Position numbers and translations under genes: made by a program
The notes under the pieces: model-generated
Database searches by the model: none
Told to the model about the DNA's origin: nothing
The model's input: only the letters and a program-made list of their open reading frames with translations
Shown here: positions 1-5,436 of the stretch, piece by piece
How the letters are laid out: every line of letters starts with the position of its first letter
Numbering within the stretch: position 1 is the first letter of the stretch
NCBI GenBank assembly: GCA_945861315.1
Contig: CAMAUB010000089.1
Coordinates: 1-5,962 of the forward strand
DNA from: Chlamydia trachomatis
GTDB taxonomy: Bacteria > Chlamydiota > Chlamydiia > Chlamydiales > JAAKFR01
Length of the DNA: 5,962 nt
Reading direction: 5' to 3'

Positions 1-140
1 ATTTTATGGTTGCGCCAAAGCCCCGCGGTTTAATGATCACAAGTCGGTTAATATTAGAAATATTGATCAACTTGGGATCATTAAACCCCGGGTGCTTTCG
101 CGTAACCAGAGGGTATCAATCTAAATTTAATCGACTATAT
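1..140 (-). mobile_element. Palindromic repeat element, copy 1 (left end outside window)
   Basis: Positions 8-107 form a long imperfect hairpin with a 3-nt loop (56-58). Arms 8-55 and 59-107 pair through most of their length. The right outer arm (about 114-140) is the partner of a terminal repeat whose left half lies beyond the window start. Bases 1-140 match the reverse complement of 5220-5359 with a single difference (G at 74 versus the T implied by A at 5286), so this is a nearly identical copy of the element at 5221-5384 in opposite orientation. It encodes no protein and fits a non-autonomous, MITE-like element. Bases after its end read TCA, matching the flank of the other copy. It lies downstream of gpi and could also act as a transcript-end hairpin. 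Confidence 0.85.
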
Positions 141-150
141 CATTCCGGAC

Positions 151-163
151 TTAATCGACTATA
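151..163. repeat. Extra copy of the element's terminal 13 bases
   Basis: TTAATCGACTATA at 151-163 repeats exactly the last bases of element copy 1 (127-139), 24 bp further on and outside the element. The 10 bases between them (141-150) are not repeated. It may be the remnant of a second, nested or excised element, or a local duplication made during insertion. Confidence 0.6.
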
Positions 164-180
164 ATACATTTTCAATTTTC

Positions 181-220
181 TTGGCGTCTTGGCGTCTTGG
201 CGTCTTGGCGACTTTGCGTT
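181..220. repeat. Octamer tandem repeat TTGGCGTC
   Basis: Three perfect TTGGCGTC units (181-204) are followed by the variants TTGGCGAC (205-212) and TTTGCGTT (213-220). The array lies between palindromic element copy 1 and the 3' end of gpi. The 8-bp period is not a codon multiple and no ORF uses it. It is a simple-sequence tract that could vary in copy number. The remainder of the gap (141-180 and 221-266) shows no gene and no clear terminator. Confidence 0.8.
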
Positions 221-266
221 GATATCTGTTGTTATGTTCATTATGCCAGACGTTTTACAATTCCCT

Positions 267-1871
267 CTAAAGTCTGTTTAGGTGGTCGATCATCGCTTCT
301 GCTTGCGGAAACTTTTCTGTTTTTTTGCCCTCTTTCTTTGCTTTGAATTGATCTATAATTTTGTTCGCAAGCACTTTTCCAAGCTGTACTCCTTCTTGGT
401 CAAATGAATTGATATTCCAACAAAAGCCTTGGAAGGCGATCTTATTTTCATAGTAAGAAAGAAGCGACCCAAGAGTAAAGGGATCAAGTCTTTTTCCAAG
501 GAGAATTGTGTTCGGTCTATTTCCTGGAAAGACTTTGTTTGGATTGTCGCTTTTTTGCCCGCCAGCTAGTGCTAGTGATTGTGCAAAAAGATTTGAGAGG
601 AGTTTTTCTTGGGAGGTTGATCCCTTGATGTTGAGGTCTTCTTTATATTGGCTCTCTCTAAATCCTATGAAGTCAACTGGGACAACATTGGTTCCTTGGT
701 GGATGAGCTGATAAAAAGAGTGTTGTCCATTGGTCCCTGGCTCTCCCCAAATAATGGGGCCGGTGTCAAAGTCAACTGGATTGCCAAGCTTGTCAATTCG
801 CTTTCCATTTGATTCCATGTTGCACTGCTGCAAGTGGGCAGGAAAGCGTAGAAGCGCTTGGGAATAGGGGAGAATGGCTACTGTTGGATGGTGGAGAAAG
901 TTGCGATTCCAAATCCCTAGCATTGCAGCAAAAAGTGGAAGGTTTTGATCAAAGTCATGGTCAAGTGCAATGCGGTCCATCTCATGTGCACCTTTGAGAA
1001 TATTCATGTATTGATCAAAGCCAAGTGCAAATGAGAGCATGACAGCGCCAACCATCGATGTTGCGGAGTAGCGTCCACCAATAAAATCCCATATATAGAA
1101 AGAAGCGAGGTAGCGGCTTGGATTGTCCATAGGACTTTTCTCGCCAGTGACGGAAATGAAATGCTCTTCTGGTTTGCAACCTGCTCGTTTGAAGTGATTG
1201 GATACAAACTCTTCATTGGTGAGAGTCTCTAGGGTTCCACCCGATTTTGAAACGGTGACCACAAGGGTTTTTTTAGGATCAACACCTTTTAGTACATTTG
1301 TTGCGTCATCGGGATCAACGTTAGAAATGAAATGAACGTTGCGCCCAGGTTTTTTGTATGCTTGTAATGCAACAAAAAGTGCTCTAGGTCCTAGGTCTGA
1401 TCCGCCAATGCCAATTTGAATAATGTCAGTAAAACGACCTTGATGATCAATTTTAGACATGAACTGTTGAAGTTTGTCACACTCTTTTTTGGCAGCTTTT
1501 GTGGCTGCTTTAGCACTAGCCCCCTCATTTGGATGCATGAAAAAATCGCGCATTGCTGTATGGAGCACCATTCGGTTTTCGCTCTCACATCCTTCAATTT
1601 TATTGATCACATCCCCGCGCTGCATCGTCTGCATCTTTTCAATCAAGCGAGCTTCATGAGCAAGCTCCTTAAGCGCTTGTAGAACATCATCATTGACTCT
1701 CTCAGTCCCGTAGAGCAGCTTAAATTCCCCAGCACTTAAGCAGTAGCGCTCGATGCGCTCTTGAGATAGATTTCCGTTAATCGTCAAATCATACGGATGT
1801 GATGCTAAATTTTTGAGTACGTGGCTGGCTCGATATTGTCGAAAACTGACGGTTGTAGCCGATTGGGGCAT
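267..1871 (-). CDS. gpi: Glucose-6-phosphate isomerase
   Basis: Interconverts glucose 6-phosphate and fructose 6-phosphate in the cytoplasm (glycolysis and gluconeogenesis). The 534-aa product is the normal length for the larger PGI class. Seen in the sequence, numbered from the chosen Met: IGGSDLG near 155, the sugar-phosphate loop SGGT near 210, the family signature GGRYS near 265, catalytic Glu353 in MESNGKR, His384 in GQHSFYQ, and Lys499 in the C-terminal signature FDQEGVQLGK. All expected catalytic residues are present, so the enzyme should be active. The start is set by a strong ribosome binding site, AAAGGAG, six bases before the ATG. The frame stays open 27 codons further upstream, but that extension runs through the promoter region and looks non-coding. 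The gene is divergent from the hypothetical-xerD operon. It ends with TAG about 125 bp from a palindromic element. Confidence 0.97.
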   Translation of the reverse strand: MPQSATTVSFRQYRASHVLKNLASHPYDLTINGNLSQERIERYCLSAGEFKLLYGTERVNDDVLQALKELAHEARLIEKMQTMQRGDVINKIEGCESENRMVLHTAMRDFFMHPNEGASAKAATKAAKKECDKLQQFMSKIDHQGRFTDIIQIGIGGSDLGPRALFVALQAYKKPGRNVHFISNVDPDDATNVLKGVDPKKTLVVTVSKSGGTLETLTNEEFVSNHFKRAGCKPEEHFISVTGEKSPMDNPSRYLASFYIWDFIGGRYSATSMVGAVMLSFALGFDQYMNILKGAHEMDRIALDHDFDQNLPLFAAMLGIWNRNFLHHPTVAILPYSQALLRFPAHLQQCNMESNGKRIDKLGNPVDFDTGPIIWGEPGTNGQHSFYQLIHQGTNVVPVDFIGFRESQYKEDLNIKGSTSQEKLLSNLFAQSLALAGGQKSDNPNKVFPGNRPNTILLGKRLDPFTLGSLLSYYENKIAFQGFCWNINSFDQEGVQLGKVLANKIIDQFKAKKEGKKTEKFPQAEAMIDHLNRL

Positions 1872-1877
1872 GAAAAA

Positions 1878-1884
1878 CTCCTTT
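1878..1884 (-). promoter_or_regulatory. Ribosome binding site of gpi
   Basis: Read on the minus strand this is AAAGGAG followed by a 6-nt spacer and ATG. It decides in favour of the start at 1871 over the in-frame ATG at 1952. Confidence 0.85.
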
Positions 1885-1898
1885 GTTATTAGGATATA

Positions 1899-1927
1899 GA
1901 CATCCCAAAAATAAAAATTTGAGTCAA
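1899..1927 (-). promoter_or_regulatory. Possible gpi promoter
   Basis: On the minus strand TTGACT (1922-1927) matches the -35 consensus at five of six bases. Seventeen bases on is GATGTC (1899-1904), a poor -10. A better-looking TATATC (1893-1898) is 23 bp from the -35, which is too far. The -35 is convincing; the -10 assignment is weak. Confidence 0.35.
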
Positions 1928-1936
1928 GAGGGAATG

Positions 1937-1992
1937 AATTGCAAAACTCCATTTGGGCGCAAATTCGCGCTCTGAAGCGAGTTTTGCAATTC
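1937..1992. repeat. 56-bp imperfect palindrome between divergent genes
   Basis: GAATTGCAAAACTC (1937-1950) and its exact reverse complement (1979-1992) enclose 28 bp. The inside is also partly palindromic around a GCGCAAATTCGCGC core. The structure sits between the putative gpi -35 and the start of the hypothetical-xerD operon, so it could be an operator acting on both directions or a cruciform. It carries no T-tract that would make it an obvious terminator. It lacks the GCGCCAAAGC box of the larger palindromic elements, so it is not another copy of them. Confidence 0.7.
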
Positions 1993-1994
1993 CT

Positions 1995-2025
1995 TCTTAA
2001 TTATTTTTATTCTATATGTTACAAT
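1995..2025 (+). promoter_or_regulatory. Possible promoter of the hypothetical-xerD operon
   Basis: TACAAT (2020-2025) is a good -10 box. The only upstream candidate is a weak TTCTTA (1995-2000) with 19-bp spacing. The alternative pair TTGCAA (1984-1989) and TATTCT (2008-2013) has 18-bp spacing. With TACAAT as -10, transcription would begin at or next to the ATG at 2032, implying a leaderless message, which agrees with the lack of any ribosome binding site there. Confidence 0.35.
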
Positions 2026-2031
2026 ATAGCC

Positions 2032-2457
2032 ATGTCTAAAATTCCAACAAGGTCCCGTTTGTGCTGCAAAGGTGAGGAACTTTTTGAACCAGGTTCTAGC
2101 TATAGCTCAACTATTAAATGGGAGAGGGGTGAGTGGAAGCGTTTCGATTTTTGCCCTAAATGTTTTGAAAAGCTGGGGCAGCAAGGACCTACGTGGCATG
2201 GCAAAATCCCCTTAAAGCAAGAGAAAAAGCTTACGCCAGATGAAGAGGCTTATGCCCGCTTTTGCTCTTTGCATAAAAATGGGCAAAGCCCAGAGCTTCT
2301 TTTTCTGTTAGCTCTTTATCTAGAGCGAAAAAAAATGTTGATACGCTGCCATATGACGCTTTTTGAAGAGCCAAATTCTGGAGAAACCTTTGAAGTAAAA
2401 TCCGTAGCTGTGAATGATCAAGCAAAAGAAGAACTACTAGAACTATTTCATGCTTGA
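2032..2457 (+). CDS. Conserved-looking hypothetical protein with paired cysteines
   Basis: The 141-aa product has no function I can name. It has a CC pair at residues 11-12 and CPKC at 41-44, a spacing that could bind a metal in a zinc-ribbon-like N-terminal half. Between them is an FEPGSSYSS stretch and aromatic residues. The C-terminal half contains the helix-like LLFLLALYLERKKML (about 89-103). From memory this layout resembles short uncharacterised proteins found in Planctomycetes, Verrucomicrobia and Chlamydiae, but I cannot verify that. The ATG at 2032 was chosen over the upstream TTG at 1939 because the extension crosses the palindrome and promoter region. No ribosome binding site is visible. 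The stop overlaps the xerD start by 8 bp, so the two are co-transcribed and probably translationally coupled. Four cysteines and no signal peptide suggest a cytoplasmic protein. Confidence 0.75.
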   Translation: MSKIPTRSRLCCKGEELFEPGSSYSSTIKWERGEWKRFDFCPKCFEKLGQQGPTWHGKIPLKQEKKLTPDEEAYARFCSLHKNGQSPELLFLLALYLERKKMLIRCHMTLFEEPNSGETFEVKSVAVNDQAKEELLELFHA

Positions 2458-3286
2458 GCACCTGCCTAATTTTCTTGCTTATCTACGTACAGAAAAAGGG
2501 CTCTCACACAATACCCTTATAGCTTATCAGCACGACCTTGAAAGATTTTCAGGAAGTGTGGTCACCGAAGAAACTCTTTATCAACAGCTATCCCAGATGC
2601 GCCGCAAGGGATACGCCTCTTCGAGCATGGCGCGCATGATTATTGCTTGTAGAGTTTTTGTCCGCTTTCTTATCCGTGAGGGAATTATTGATTCGAAGCA
2701 AAAGCTCTTAGTTGAGACTCCAAAGCTTTGGCAGCTTATTCCAGAAGTTTTGACAATTGAAGAAGTTGAGCGTCTTCTTTCTGCCCCCGACCGAGAAACA
2801 TTTATTGGAGCTAGGGACCTTGCAATCATTGAATTGCTCTATGGAAGTGGGTTACGTGTATCGGAGCTTTGTACTCTTAAGCTTAACAATCTTGGTGATG
2901 ATGCCTTAAGAGTAATGGGGAAAGGGGAGAAAGAGCGCATTGTTCCAGTTGGGCGCAAAGCAATTGAAGCTGTTGATCACTATCTTTTGCATTTTCATCA
3001 AGAGGGGGAGGTGCTTTTTGTTTCGAAGAGCGGGAAGCCAATTGATCGAGTCTTGATTTGGAGAATGATCAAGCAGTATGGGAAAAAAGTGGGTATTGAA
3101 AAGAGAATCTCTCCCCATACCTTGCGCCACAGCTTTGCAACCCACTTGCTTGAAAATGGAGCCGAGTTGCGTGTGATTCAAGAGATGCTTGGGCATGCAT
3201 CGATTGCAACAACAGATCGCTATACCCAAATTAGTCAGCGTCATATAAAAACAGCCTTTGAGAAATTTACTCCTAAGGGCCCGTAA
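2450..3286 (+). CDS. xerD: Site-specific tyrosine recombinase XerD
   Basis: Acts with XerC at dif to resolve chromosome dimers. The 278-aa product has an N-terminal SAM-like domain (LSHNTLIAYQHDL, about 18-30) and a C-terminal catalytic domain. The full catalytic set is visible: Arg136 (GLRVSEL), Lys158, His223 and Arg226 (SPHTLRHSFATH), His249 (LGHASI) and nucleophile Tyr258 (DRYTQ). The SPHTLRHSFATHLLENGA block and LSxNTLxAYxxDL motif favour XerD over XerC. The start overlaps the preceding gene by 8 bp with no clear ribosome binding site, pointing to coupling. The last codons (Gly-Pro-stop) lie inside the palindromic element at 3277-3438. Without the insert the protein would end ...TPKR, closer to the HPRA-type end usual in XerD. 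The catalytic domain is untouched, so activity is probably retained. Confidence 0.93.
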   Translation: MLEHLPNFLAYLRTEKGLSHNTLIAYQHDLERFSGSVVTEETLYQQLSQMRRKGYASSSMARMIIACRVFVRFLIREGIIDSKQKLLVETPKLWQLIPEVLTIEEVERLLSAPDRETFIGARDLAIIELLYGSGLRVSELCTLKLNNLGDDALRVMGKGEKERIVPVGRKAIEAVDHYLLHFHQEGEVLFVSKSGKPIDRVLIWRMIKQYGKKVGIEKRISPHTLRHSFATHLLENGAELRVIQEMLGHASIATTDRYTQISQRHIKTAFEKFTPKGP

Positions 3287-3438
3287 AACAATAACATGGA
3301 CGACTGGACGGCGCCAAAGCCCCGGGATTGAACGATCGAAATGGGGTTAGTATGAGTCAATACTAACCCCATTTCGATCGTTCAATCGCGGGAGCTTTCG
3401 CGCTAGTCCAGTCGTCCATGTTATTATTTTACGGGCCC
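3277..3438 (+). mobile_element. Palindromic repeat element, copy 3 (xerD/rsbT junction)
   Basis: A 162-bp near-perfect palindrome with a 6-nt loop (GAGTCA, 3354-3359). The outer arms begin GGGCCCGTAAAA and are almost perfectly complementary over about 33 bp. The inner module 3311-3337 / 3376-3402 is homologous to 12-38 / 76-102 of copy 1 (23 of 27 and 22 of 27 identical). Direct repeats TAA at 3274-3276 and 3439-3441 flank it and look like a target duplication. Deleting the element plus one TAA gives CCTAAAAGATGAAA, in which the xerD stop TGA overlaps the rsbT ATG. The element supplies the present xerD stop codon. In RNA it would be a long stem, a likely RNase III substrate or a barrier between xerD and rsbT. 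No protein is encoded. Confidence 0.88.
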
Positions 3439-3444
3439 TAAAAG

Positions 3445-3837
3445 ATGAAAAAACGTGTTTTCAAACTAACAAATAGTGAAGAGCTTGACCTTGTAAGAGC
3501 TGAGGTGATAAAAGCGTGTCGTCGTTGCAATCTTGATAGCCTGAATGAAGTGCGTGTTGTAACAGCTGTCATGGAAGTTGCTTATAATACATCACACTAC
3601 GCGAAAAAGGGGAAGATAACAGTTCGTGAGCTCAAGAGGGGGATTGAAATTGTAATTGAGGATAAAGGACCAGGAATTGAGGAGGTTGAGAAGGCAATGA
3701 AAGAGTGCTACTCCACCCACAATGGGCCAGGACTTGGACTTCCTGTTGCAAAAACACTGATGGATGAATTTGAGATCACTTCTAAGCTGGGGGTTGGCAC
3801 GAAAATCGTGATGCGAAAGTTCCAACCGCTCCTCTGA
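3445..3837 (+). CDS. RsbT-like serine/threonine kinase (HATPase anti-sigma regulator family)
   Basis: A 130-aa GHKL-fold ATP-binding protein of the partner-switching type, which phosphorylates a STAS-domain antagonist and/or controls a downstream partner. Visible motifs: N-box TAVMEVAYNTSHYA (Glu44, Asn48), G1 box EDKGPGI (72-78), Ser-Thr then GPGLGLP (94-100) as G2 box, and MDEFEITSKLGVGT (106-119). The MDEFEI and YST.GLGLP features match RsbT from memory better than RsbW, so an RsbT-type role is favoured; in chlamydiae such genes are often labelled rsbW. The start codon has no ribosome binding site, only TAAAAG before ATG. Before the palindromic insertion it probably overlapped the xerD stop (ATGA), so translation would have been coupled. 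Its present expression may be altered by the hairpin. The stop lies within a 35-nt repeat shared with the region after bioY. Confidence 0.88.
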   Translation: MKKRVFKLTNSEELDLVRAEVIKACRRCNLDSLNEVRVVTAVMEVAYNTSHYAKKGKITVRELKRGIEIVIEDKGPGIEEVEKAMKECYSTHNGPGLGLPVAKTLMDEFEITSKLGVGTKIVMRKFQPLL

Positions 3838-3867
3838 ATATCTGTGGGATAAACCCAAAACTCAGGT
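3833..3867 (+). repeat. 35-nt direct repeat, copy A (before bioY)
   Basis: TCTGAATATCTG followed by GGGATAAAC and a C-rich tail. It matches 4486-4520 at 31 of 35 bases. It begins in the last codon of the RsbT-like gene. CTG-n-GGG and CTCAG/CCCAG could pair in both copies (a G-U pair here, G-C in the other), leaving a 12-nt loop. Confidence 0.75.
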
Positions 3868-3885
3868 CTCTCATCTAATTGCTCC

Positions 3886-3914
3886 TTGATTTTAAGAGTG
3901 CTTCCTCATACAAT
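3886..3914 (+). promoter_or_regulatory. Promoter of bioY
   Basis: TTGATT (3886-3891) and TACAAT (3909-3914) are separated by exactly 17 bp, a good match to a housekeeping sigma70-type (chlamydial sigma66) promoter. Predicted transcription start is near 3921, giving a short leader of about 17 nt before the bioY ATG. Confidence 0.65.
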
Positions 3915-3927
3915 TTTTGATTACCCT

Positions 3928-3931
3928 GGAG
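3928..3931 (+). promoter_or_regulatory. Ribosome binding site of bioY
   Basis: GGAG with a 6-nt spacer before ATG at 3938. With the promoter just upstream, this rules out the in-frame TTG at 3917 as start, since that codon precedes the predicted transcript. Confidence 0.8.
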
Positions 3932-3937
3932 ATAAAA

Positions 3938-4483
3938 ATGAATGCTCATATTGAAACAAAATCTACTAAGTGGCTTTCACAAGTGGCTTACCAAACGTTT
4001 ATAATTTTTGGAGGAGTCCTTTTTTTAGTTCTCTGTTCTCTTTGCCGTTTTCCTCTTTGGTTTACTCCTGTACCCGTTACGTTACAGACATTTGCTATCC
4101 TTCTTATGGGAGCTTTTTTAGGAAGTAGAAAAGCGCCAATAGCAGCATTGATCTATCTTGGTTGTGGCTCATTTGGCCTCCCTTTTTTTTCTACTGCATT
4201 AGGTGGTGCTACAACAGGCTATTTACTCGGATTTGTCTTAGCTACATTTTTAGTGGGTCTTTTATTTGAGAGGGGAGCCGCGCGTCATGTCACTCTTACA
4301 GCCTTAACATTTTTGGTAGGCTCATTGGTTATTCAGCTTTGTGGTGTTCTTTGGCTTGGATCATTGATTGGTTTTAAACAAGCGCTTGTCATGGGCTTCT
4401 ACCCTTTCATTATTGTTGATCTTGCAAAAGTGGTCGTTGCAACGGGGATTTGCTCGGCACGATGGAAGCTTAAGAAATCTTAG
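3938..4483 (+). CDS. bioY: BioY biotin transporter (ECF S component)
   Basis: Membrane substrate-binding subunit for biotin uptake, 181 aa, the usual length. About six hydrophobic segments are visible after a polar N-terminus of about 15 residues. Family hallmarks: PVPVTLQTFAILLMGAFLG (44-62), GGATTGYLLGF (89-99) and the C-terminal PFIIVDLAKVVVA (156-168) with Asp161 and Lys164, corresponding to the conserved P-x-D-x-x-K segment. No ECF ATPase or EcfT gene lies beside it, so it is a solitary BioY that either works alone or shares a distant energising module. Biotin import by BioY from the host is established for Chlamydia. It has its own promoter and ribosome binding site, so it is independent of the xerD-rsbT operon. 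It is bracketed by two copies of a 35-nt repeat. Confidence 0.93.
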   Translation: MNAHIETKSTKWLSQVAYQTFIIFGGVLFLVLCSLCRFPLWFTPVPVTLQTFAILLMGAFLGSRKAPIAALIYLGCGSFGLPFFSTALGGATTGYLLGFVLATFLVGLLFERGAARHVTLTALTFLVGSLVIQLCGVLWLGSLIGFKQALVMGFYPFIIVDLAKVVVATGICSARWKLKKS

Positions 4484-4485
4484 AA

Positions 4486-4520
4486 TCTGAATATCTGCGG
4501 GATAAACTCAAAACCCAGAT
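4486..4520 (+). repeat. 35-nt direct repeat, copy B (after bioY)
   Basis: Starts two bases after the bioY stop and matches 3833-3867 at 31 of 35 bases. It precedes the Inc-like gene as copy A precedes bioY. The stretch between it and the next ATG ends in eight T residues after an AGG that may be the ribosome binding site. No convincing promoter was found, so read-through from bioY is likely. Confidence 0.75.
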
Positions 4521-4548
4521 TACTATGCCCTAAACACAGGTTTTTTTT

Positions 4549-5220
4549 ATGGTGTTACCTACAGCTAGTCGCATTTGTGCTGAAAGAAAAGAGTATTATC
4601 AACCTTGCCAAGAAAATGCGCGTGTTAATCACTCACTCATCTCAACACTTGCAATCGCCACTGTTGCTATGATAGGCCTTACTTTAGCAATGCACTTTGG
4701 GGCCTTTACAGTTAACCCAGCAGGCCTAACAACATGCTCCGTTGTAACAGGTGTTGTTGGCTTAGGTTTGATTACTGCTATTGCCTCACGTTGCATAGGA
4801 TTTCCAAAGTCAACTCAAGCTGAGCCTGATGGTGAGAAACATTTTGAGGCATGCATAAAAGAGACTTCTGATGCAACTAGCGCTTGTAGGAGACCAGTTT
4901 GTGTATTTAGTGCTTATACCGTGATGCCTAACGGTATTTCAGTGAAAATTCAGTTAACAGATAGAAGTGCTGAGTTTGCTCTAATAAGGGTGGACTCTAT
5001 CGATAATTATCAATTTTTTATCGATACGCAAGCCTTAGTTTTTGATGAGAGCGATACGGTAATTTATCATATAGTCTATGGGTTCAACGAAGAGTTGGAC
5101 CGGTCAGATCCACATCCACAGACATGGGCGCTTGAAACCTCACCGCACCTTGAGAAGCTATTTGATGTTGATCAGAGGAAGAAGTTCCCTTTTGGTGCTC
5201 TAATACGATTAGGCTCATGA
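4549..5220 (+). CDS. Putative inclusion membrane (Inc-like) protein with a two-lobed hydrophobic domain
   Basis: A 223-aa protein with no sequence family I recognise. After a polar N-terminus of about 29 residues, two hydrophobic segments (about 30-50 and 58-80) are separated by a short loop, followed by a soluble C-terminal region of about 140 residues. This bilobed hairpin near the N-terminus is the hallmark of chlamydial Inc proteins, which are secreted by type III and anchored in the inclusion membrane with both ends facing the host cytosol. Inc proteins have little sequence conservation, so assignment is by topology only. An ordinary two-pass inner-membrane protein is the alternative. 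A weak AGG lies eight T residues before the ATG. It probably shares the bioY transcript. The TGA stop coincides with the 3-bp direct repeat flanking palindromic element copy 2; removing the element leaves the stop unchanged. Confidence 0.6.
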   Translation: MVLPTASRICAERKEYYQPCQENARVNHSLISTLAIATVAMIGLTLAMHFGAFTVNPAGLTTCSVVTGVVGLGLITAIASRCIGFPKSTQAEPDGEKHFEACIKETSDATSACRRPVCVFSAYTVMPNGISVKIQLTDRSAEFALIRVDSIDNYQFFIDTQALVFDESDTVIYHIVYGFNEELDRSDPHPQTWALETSPHLEKLFDVDQRKKFPFGALIRLGS

Positions 5221-5384
5221 TATAGTCGATTAAATTTAGATTGATACCCTCTGGTTACGCGAAAGCACCCGGGGTTTAATGATCCAAAGTTGATCAATAT
5301 TTCTAATATTAACCGACTTGTGATCATTAAACCGCGGGGCTTTGGCGCAACCATAAAATATCAATCTAAATTTAATCGACTATA
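5221..5384 (+). mobile_element. Palindromic repeat element, copy 2 (complete)
   Basis: A 164-bp palindrome with perfect inverted ends: 5221-5246 pairs exactly with 5359-5384 (26 bp, TATAGTCGATTAAATTTAGA and on). The core at 5258-5348 holds the GCGCCAAAGC / GCTTTCGCG box module shared with copy 3. It is flanked by TGA at 5218-5220 and at 5385-5387, a likely 3-bp target duplication. Deleting the element plus one TGA leaves GCTCATGAGC, itself a palindrome. Bases 5220-5359 equal the reverse complement of 1-140 except for one base. It lies between two convergent genes, so the hairpin may end transcription from either side. No transposase is present in the window; if mobile, it must be moved in trans. 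Confidence 0.88.
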
Positions 5385-5436
5385 TGAGCTTCGAAATGCT
5401 TGATCAAATCTACTGCACGATCTAATTTTATGAACT

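Follow-up and report, generated by a model that had tools for sequence, protein, structure and literature searches.

Hairpin elements of environmental Chlamydiota with a conserved core and several kinds of terminal repeat

Described hairpin elements and the three copies of the window

The Correia elements of Neisseria (CREE/NEMIS), most commonly 153-157 or 104-108 bp long, combine inverted repeats and a conserved core with a target duplication and alternative end variants, as presented in the passages of PMC2649163 that concern their structure. RUP of Streptococcus pneumoniae is a non-autonomous element of 107 bp that has IS630-Spn1-like ends and inserts at TA, according to the passages of PMC2229807 devoted to it, and the REPs of REP/RAYT systems are 20-40 bp long, some families of these hairpins carrying fixed mismatches or 1-bp bulges in the relevant part of PMC3733652. 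The chlamydial elements studied here are like the Correia elements, as portrayed in those passages, in their size, in joining inverted repeats to a core (the cores being likened by description), in target duplication and in end variants; unlike them, they carry other ends as well, one class of which has a 3-bp duplication, and they belong to another phylum. RUP, as far as those passages of PMC2229807 go, comes closest in logic, but it has one end type, and no functional DNA motif is reported there.

The window, that is, the whole analysed stretch of 5,962 nt, holds three copies of the element, which are listed together with adjoining features.

1-139, + strand: hairpin element, copy 1, truncated by the window start, with its core at 12-102 and a right TATAG-type end at 115-139
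140-163, - strand: probable remnant of a second TATAG-type end adjoining copy 1, from the repeat listing
2450-3286, + strand: tyrosine recombinase gene of the XerC/XerD type, which runs into copy 2 with its final two codons and stop
3274-3276, + strand: TAA, the 3-bp target duplication on the left of copy 2
3277-3438, + strand: copy 2, an element of the TNA/GGR class, 162 bp
3311-3402, + strand: core hairpin of copy 2 with two conserved boxes
3439-3441, + strand: TAA, the 3-bp target duplication on the right of copy 2
5221-5384, - strand: copy 3, an element of the TATAG class with TA at both ends
5258-5348, - strand: core hairpin of copy 3 with the two-box pattern

All three copies match the two-box core pattern GCGCCAAAGCNCCG ... 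GGGNGCTTTCGCG, for which shuffled sequences give an expectation of 0. On folding, copy 2 forms a single hairpin over its full length (-87.2 kcal/mol, z -22), and copy 3 reaches z -14.8. The first-pass annotation had recognised two unrelated kinds of arm, which stands, and its ambiguous grouping can be made definite: one kind belongs to copies 1 and 3, the other to copy 2. The leading 18 nt of the Correia repeat, in the form given in that portion of PMC2649163, is identical at 17/18 positions in copies 1 and 3 (3 matches, 0 expected), and its 27-nt form has no match in the window with up to 3 mismatches, so that by this measure the copies are not Correia elements. The partial end at 140-163 is probably what is left of another element at the site of copy 1. 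Copies 1 and 3 are near-identical in inverted orientation (1-143 and 5217-5359, 1 difference in 143 nt) and lie 5.07 kb apart, a pair that could allow inversion of the intervening segment.

The final two residues of the tyrosine recombinase, together with its stop, are encoded by copy 2. When the flanks of copy 2 are joined, the protein ends in FTPKR*, the stop then overlapping the next start codon; furthermore, the C-terminal end lies 1-3 residues past the same PK or PR in 11 aligned homologues (taken from a list of 120 proteins that includes the one encoded in the window), which fits an insertion of copy 2 at the end of the recombinase gene. Elsewhere in the window, a 33-nt direct repeat, 91% identical, flanks bioY at 3833-3865 and 4486-4518, and at 180-210, downstream of pgi, units of the CTTGGCGT type form a short tandem array. 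The ATPase protein of the window had no match at E 1e-15 among 232 Chlamydiota genomes.

Distribution, core anatomy and genomic setting

Across 84,980 species genomes (genome_contigs), the two-box pattern occurs in 50 stretches, every one of which bears the title of a Chlamydiota MAG; viral_contigs gave 0 matches, and blastn of plasmids and phages found no element. A covariance model of the core (R1), built from 39 pattern-chosen cores, matches 97 of 232 Chlamydiota genomes at E 1e-5, in a survey that was confined to that phylum, applied strict filters and scored 16 candidates in each genome, and it is positive in 12/12 and 30/30 genomes of two sets that were picked for already having the element. 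Matches on both strands range from 4 to at least 150 per genome in the 12 genomes picked as carriers, and as palindromes score on both strands, the true copies amount to about half of these counts. The element is about 163 bp long, reaches dozens of copies per genome and is spread over environmental Chlamydiota; the multi-copy family claimed by the first-pass annotation is thereby borne out, and the concern it raised, that no more than three copies might exist, falls away. Short, multi-copy and devoid of a transposase gene, the element resembles a MITE in this first respect. A chlamydial family of this kind was not found described in a literature search made mostly outside subscription papers, and a term search of the text of a review of prokaryotic MITEs (PMC10969869) returned neither 'chlamyd' nor 'IS630'. 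Rfam offered as its best hit only mir-203, at 20.4 bits versus a gathering score of 65, and hence no family match.

The full element has sharp ends around a core hairpin of about 92 nt. The alignment of 39 cores predicts 41 pairs, of which 22 have changed on both sides, with pairing kept, in at least one sequence. Two irregularities persist: just before AAAG there is a C/G mismatch, and on one arm AAAGC is followed by an additional base. A further mismatch a few bases inward is frequent. Since the search pattern itself had fixed the boxes, the asymmetry was tested on elements that do not fit it: among 31 such elements (one per genome) the mismatch is present in 26 (25 as C/G) and the bulge in 29, relative to a background of 344 mismatches in 3761 paired columns overall (9.1%), a test biased insofar as R1 was trained on pattern-chosen cores and in which, of 47 elements, L086 had no anchor and L182 had a misplaced one and was counted as unmatched. 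In a larger set of 119 elements, which includes pattern-chosen ones and at least one doubtful member (L123, which looks like a chance hairpin), the mismatch occurs in 108, the bulge in 113, and in 102 the bulged arm has a G opposite a C. The detector behind this set misses copies: it picked up 10 elements in a half of G229 (its first 1.2 Mb) that holds 16 end pairs spaced 161-162 nt apart. One member of the set, L239 (around 387-555), has lost both mismatch and bulge; its arm identity is 0.986, the median being 0.859, and it is the sole copy at or above 0.97.

A fixed mismatch and a fixed bulge amid co-varying pairs suggest that the folded strand of the core is read, a role which we infer from the pattern of conservation. 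In integron attC sites the stem varies, and strand identity is determined by unpaired bases that are conserved; the chlamydial core is like them in having unpaired bases conserved within a variable stem, a comparison of features only.

Stem co-variation is also what one would see if the core were an RNA hairpin useful to the host, such as an RNase III site, an mRNA 3' end or a terminator, its mobility being secondary. Such a function would agree with the binding of Correia elements by RNase III (reported in the portion of PMC2649163 concerned) and with the position of the copies, which lie closer to gene 3' ends (median 37 bp, at most 20 bp in 31/72) than to 5' ends (median 95.5 bp, at most 20 bp in 14/72). 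However, the 72 elements with neighbours on both sides fall between 36 co-directional, 18 convergent and 18 divergent gene pairs, convergent and divergent settings thus being equal, and their orientation relative to co-directional neighbours is 19:17. The 3' bias may reflect only that insertion is tolerated there, and we consider a primary RNA function unlikely. Within reading frames of at least 100 aa lie 16 of the 119 elements.

End classes and their separability from the core

The same class is found at both ends in 86 of the 119 elements (52 TATAC, 19 TNA/GGR, 9 TAGTA and 6 TATAG). In the others one end or both could not be assigned to a class, except for L066 and L091, where the class patterns disagree between ends although the arms look alike. 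A search of 4 genomes with a TATAC pattern gave 7 matches, which fall in 2 of them. The terminal inverted repeats have sharp boundaries, as MITEs do, and terminal definition, whose absence the annotation had named as fatal to its proposal, is present. Likewise MITE-like is the target duplication of the GGR class, a direct 3-bp TAA/TTA in 18 of 19 elements; for the TA classes TA is part of the class motif, so that they provide no independent test of duplication.

Some elements depart from these classes. L187, which bears a core, has TTAACTCGA ends on both sides, perhaps a further end class seen in one case. Five coreless 47-bp palindromes consisting of ends only occur in the first 1.2 Mb of G229 (L244-L303; 173344, 499029, 712324, 721472 and 1133556); they may have arisen by deletion or be independently mobile. 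Elements in L147 and L166 likewise lack a core but bear TATAG ends; they were found in G142 and G057, the latter not being among the R1-positive genomes.

The arms were compared with the ends of transposons encoding PF13358, which we take to be DDE_3 of the IS630 type, and PF13586, presumably of the IS5 type. PF13358 is present in 62/232 genomes (E 1e-10), and among 33 loci (L101-L103, L304-L333) 12 had ends definable by eye, a thirteenth (L314) showing only one end. TATAC arms reach a mean best score of 11.1 with PF13358 ends (shuffled 7.2), a value that stems partly from the class motif itself, as the shuffles kept 3 nt of a motif of 5; 61 of 64 distinct arms score higher with these than with PF13586 ends, and some reach only 8-9 with the transposon ends. 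For instance, the end TATACTCAAGGTGACTCAAAAATTGG of a transposon of G229 (L310:952-2070) is identical at 20/26 positions to TATACTCAAACAACTTCAAAAATTGG of the elements in the same genome. TATAG arms behave similarly (11.2, shuffled 7.9), 5 of 8 scoring better than with PF13586 ends and 3 being ties. GGR arms lean weakly towards PF13586 ends (8.1, shuffled 6.9), 26 of 37 distinct arms scoring better there, 4 worse and 7 equally, and TAGTA arms are ambiguous (8.4, shuffled 7.5; of 15, 7 better, 6 worse and 2 ties). PF13586 transposons occur with TAA/TTA flanks (e.g. L338, L340) and without them (e.g. L342, L352). A transposon sharing the ends, which the first-pass annotation had proposed to seek, has thus come to light for TATAC and TATAG in the form of PF13358 and would be the autonomous partner expected of a MITE, but the GGR lean is weak and TAGTA stays ambiguous.

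That annotation had further conjectured that movement depends on recognition of the hairpin or inner box rather than of the ends, for which REP/RAYT and IS200/IS605 systems would be the parallel. Although the conserved mismatch and bulge, whose relative polarity is fixed with the G lying on the arm that carries the bulge, would suit such recognition, the conjecture is at odds with the sharply bounded ends, the GGR duplications and the preference of TATAC arms for PF13358, and we judge it very unlikely. To our knowledge, REPs lack target duplications. Moreover, unlike REP/RAYT and IS200/IS605, the chlamydial elements have no linked Y1 transposase: PF01797 is not associated with the presence of the element (42/97 genomes with it versus 46/135 without, p 0.17), and the core is absent from 30 fetched Y1 loci.

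The first-pass proposal that the inside is kept while the ends vary agrees with the arm comparisons. TATAC and GGR arms score no better than shuffled sequences over their outer 18 nt (-5.3, shuffled -5.0) and are alike over their inner 18 nt (+0.5, shuffled -5.4); the same holds for TATAG and GGR arms (outer -4.0, shuffled -4.2; inner -1.4, shuffled -4.9), whereas the outer arms of TATAC and TATAG are alike (0.0, shuffled -4.7). Core identity averages 0.736 within a genome between different end classes, and between genomes 0.658 with different and 0.675 with same ends (103 of the 119 elements); these values imply that the end class says little about the core. Many GGR cores nevertheless have as nearest relative a GGR core of another genome, which indicates occasional rather than frequent exchange of ends.

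One might suppose instead that there are several separate families of ordinary MITEs, each derived from its own IS by internal deletion, whose interiors are alike by descent or chance. RUP with IS630-Spn1 is a known case of this kind (in the passages of PMC2229807 concerned), the arms do match PF13358 transposon ends, and a whole element, L101:1217-1392, follows a PF13358 transposase frame downstream at a distance of about 24 nt. Yet paired core boxes were found in 0/12 PF13358 transposons with defined ends, two of which (L329, L330) show a lone AAAG-type match at one end, and R1 had no match in any of 30 loci with PF13358 or of 30 with PF13586, so that the interior of the element was not traced to an internally deleted transposon in this material. 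Separate families of this sort are therefore quite unlikely: coreless PF13358 transposons, and the same core between unrelated ends, argue that ends and core are separable and that the core travels as a MITE-like passenger.

A proposed route of movement and candidate partners

From these comparisons we consider it rather probable that the family consists of a conserved core hairpin framed by exchangeable terminal repeats, IS630-matching or IS5-resembling, and that it is likely moved in trans by the corresponding transposases. A resident transposase would bind the outer ~20 nt and ignore the core, moving the unit and duplicating TA or TNA. A new end acquired on one arm could then be copied to the other by hairpin-templated repair, which would keep the ends matched; that arms can become equal is shown by the near-perfect symmetry of L239. 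Such copying would erase the asymmetry of the core, yet mismatch and bulge persist, which argues for selection on both. The core would be kept since its folded, asymmetric strand helps the element to persist, candidate benefits being the binding of a protein or making a long palindrome tolerable.

Against this explanation stands that the presence of the element is untied to that of PF13358 (29/97 genomes with the element versus 33/135 without, p 0.37) or PF13586 (12/97 versus 23/135, p 0.36), in a comparison in which draft assemblies drop IS copies; the IS5-type link, in addition, is weak. A bolder version, which we advance tentatively and with some doubt, would make the core an independent mobile module, a parasite of transposons whose strand-specific hairpin swaps IS630- and IS5-type ends by arm copying, agnostic of the transposase and phylum-wide. 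An ordinary non-autonomous element is tied to one transposase and dies out with it; if the core keeps its inside while changing its ends, it shows how such elements outlive their helpers, and the family is a natural test of what the interior of a MITE is for.

Other candidates for a partner were rejected. PF13340 was present in 0/8 genomes. Among the PF13358 and PF01609 loci L101-L133, no terminal repeat was arm-like by eye among the best pairs listed, and R1 gave, besides the element next to the PF13358 gene in L101, a weak match in L124. As autonomous copies, both an element of G198 split by a 3.27-kb insert (L171:8307-11667) and the G229 pair 873745/877011 were discarded, no transposase being recognised in their reading frames; the L171 insert holds a reading frame of 957 aa with a glycine-rich part. 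Finally, five PF13358 transposons of about 930 bp (L304, L312, L315, L325 and L330) have ends of the TATAGT or TATAGC type, reminiscent of the Correia repeat, which hints at the type of transposase that could have moved Correia elements.
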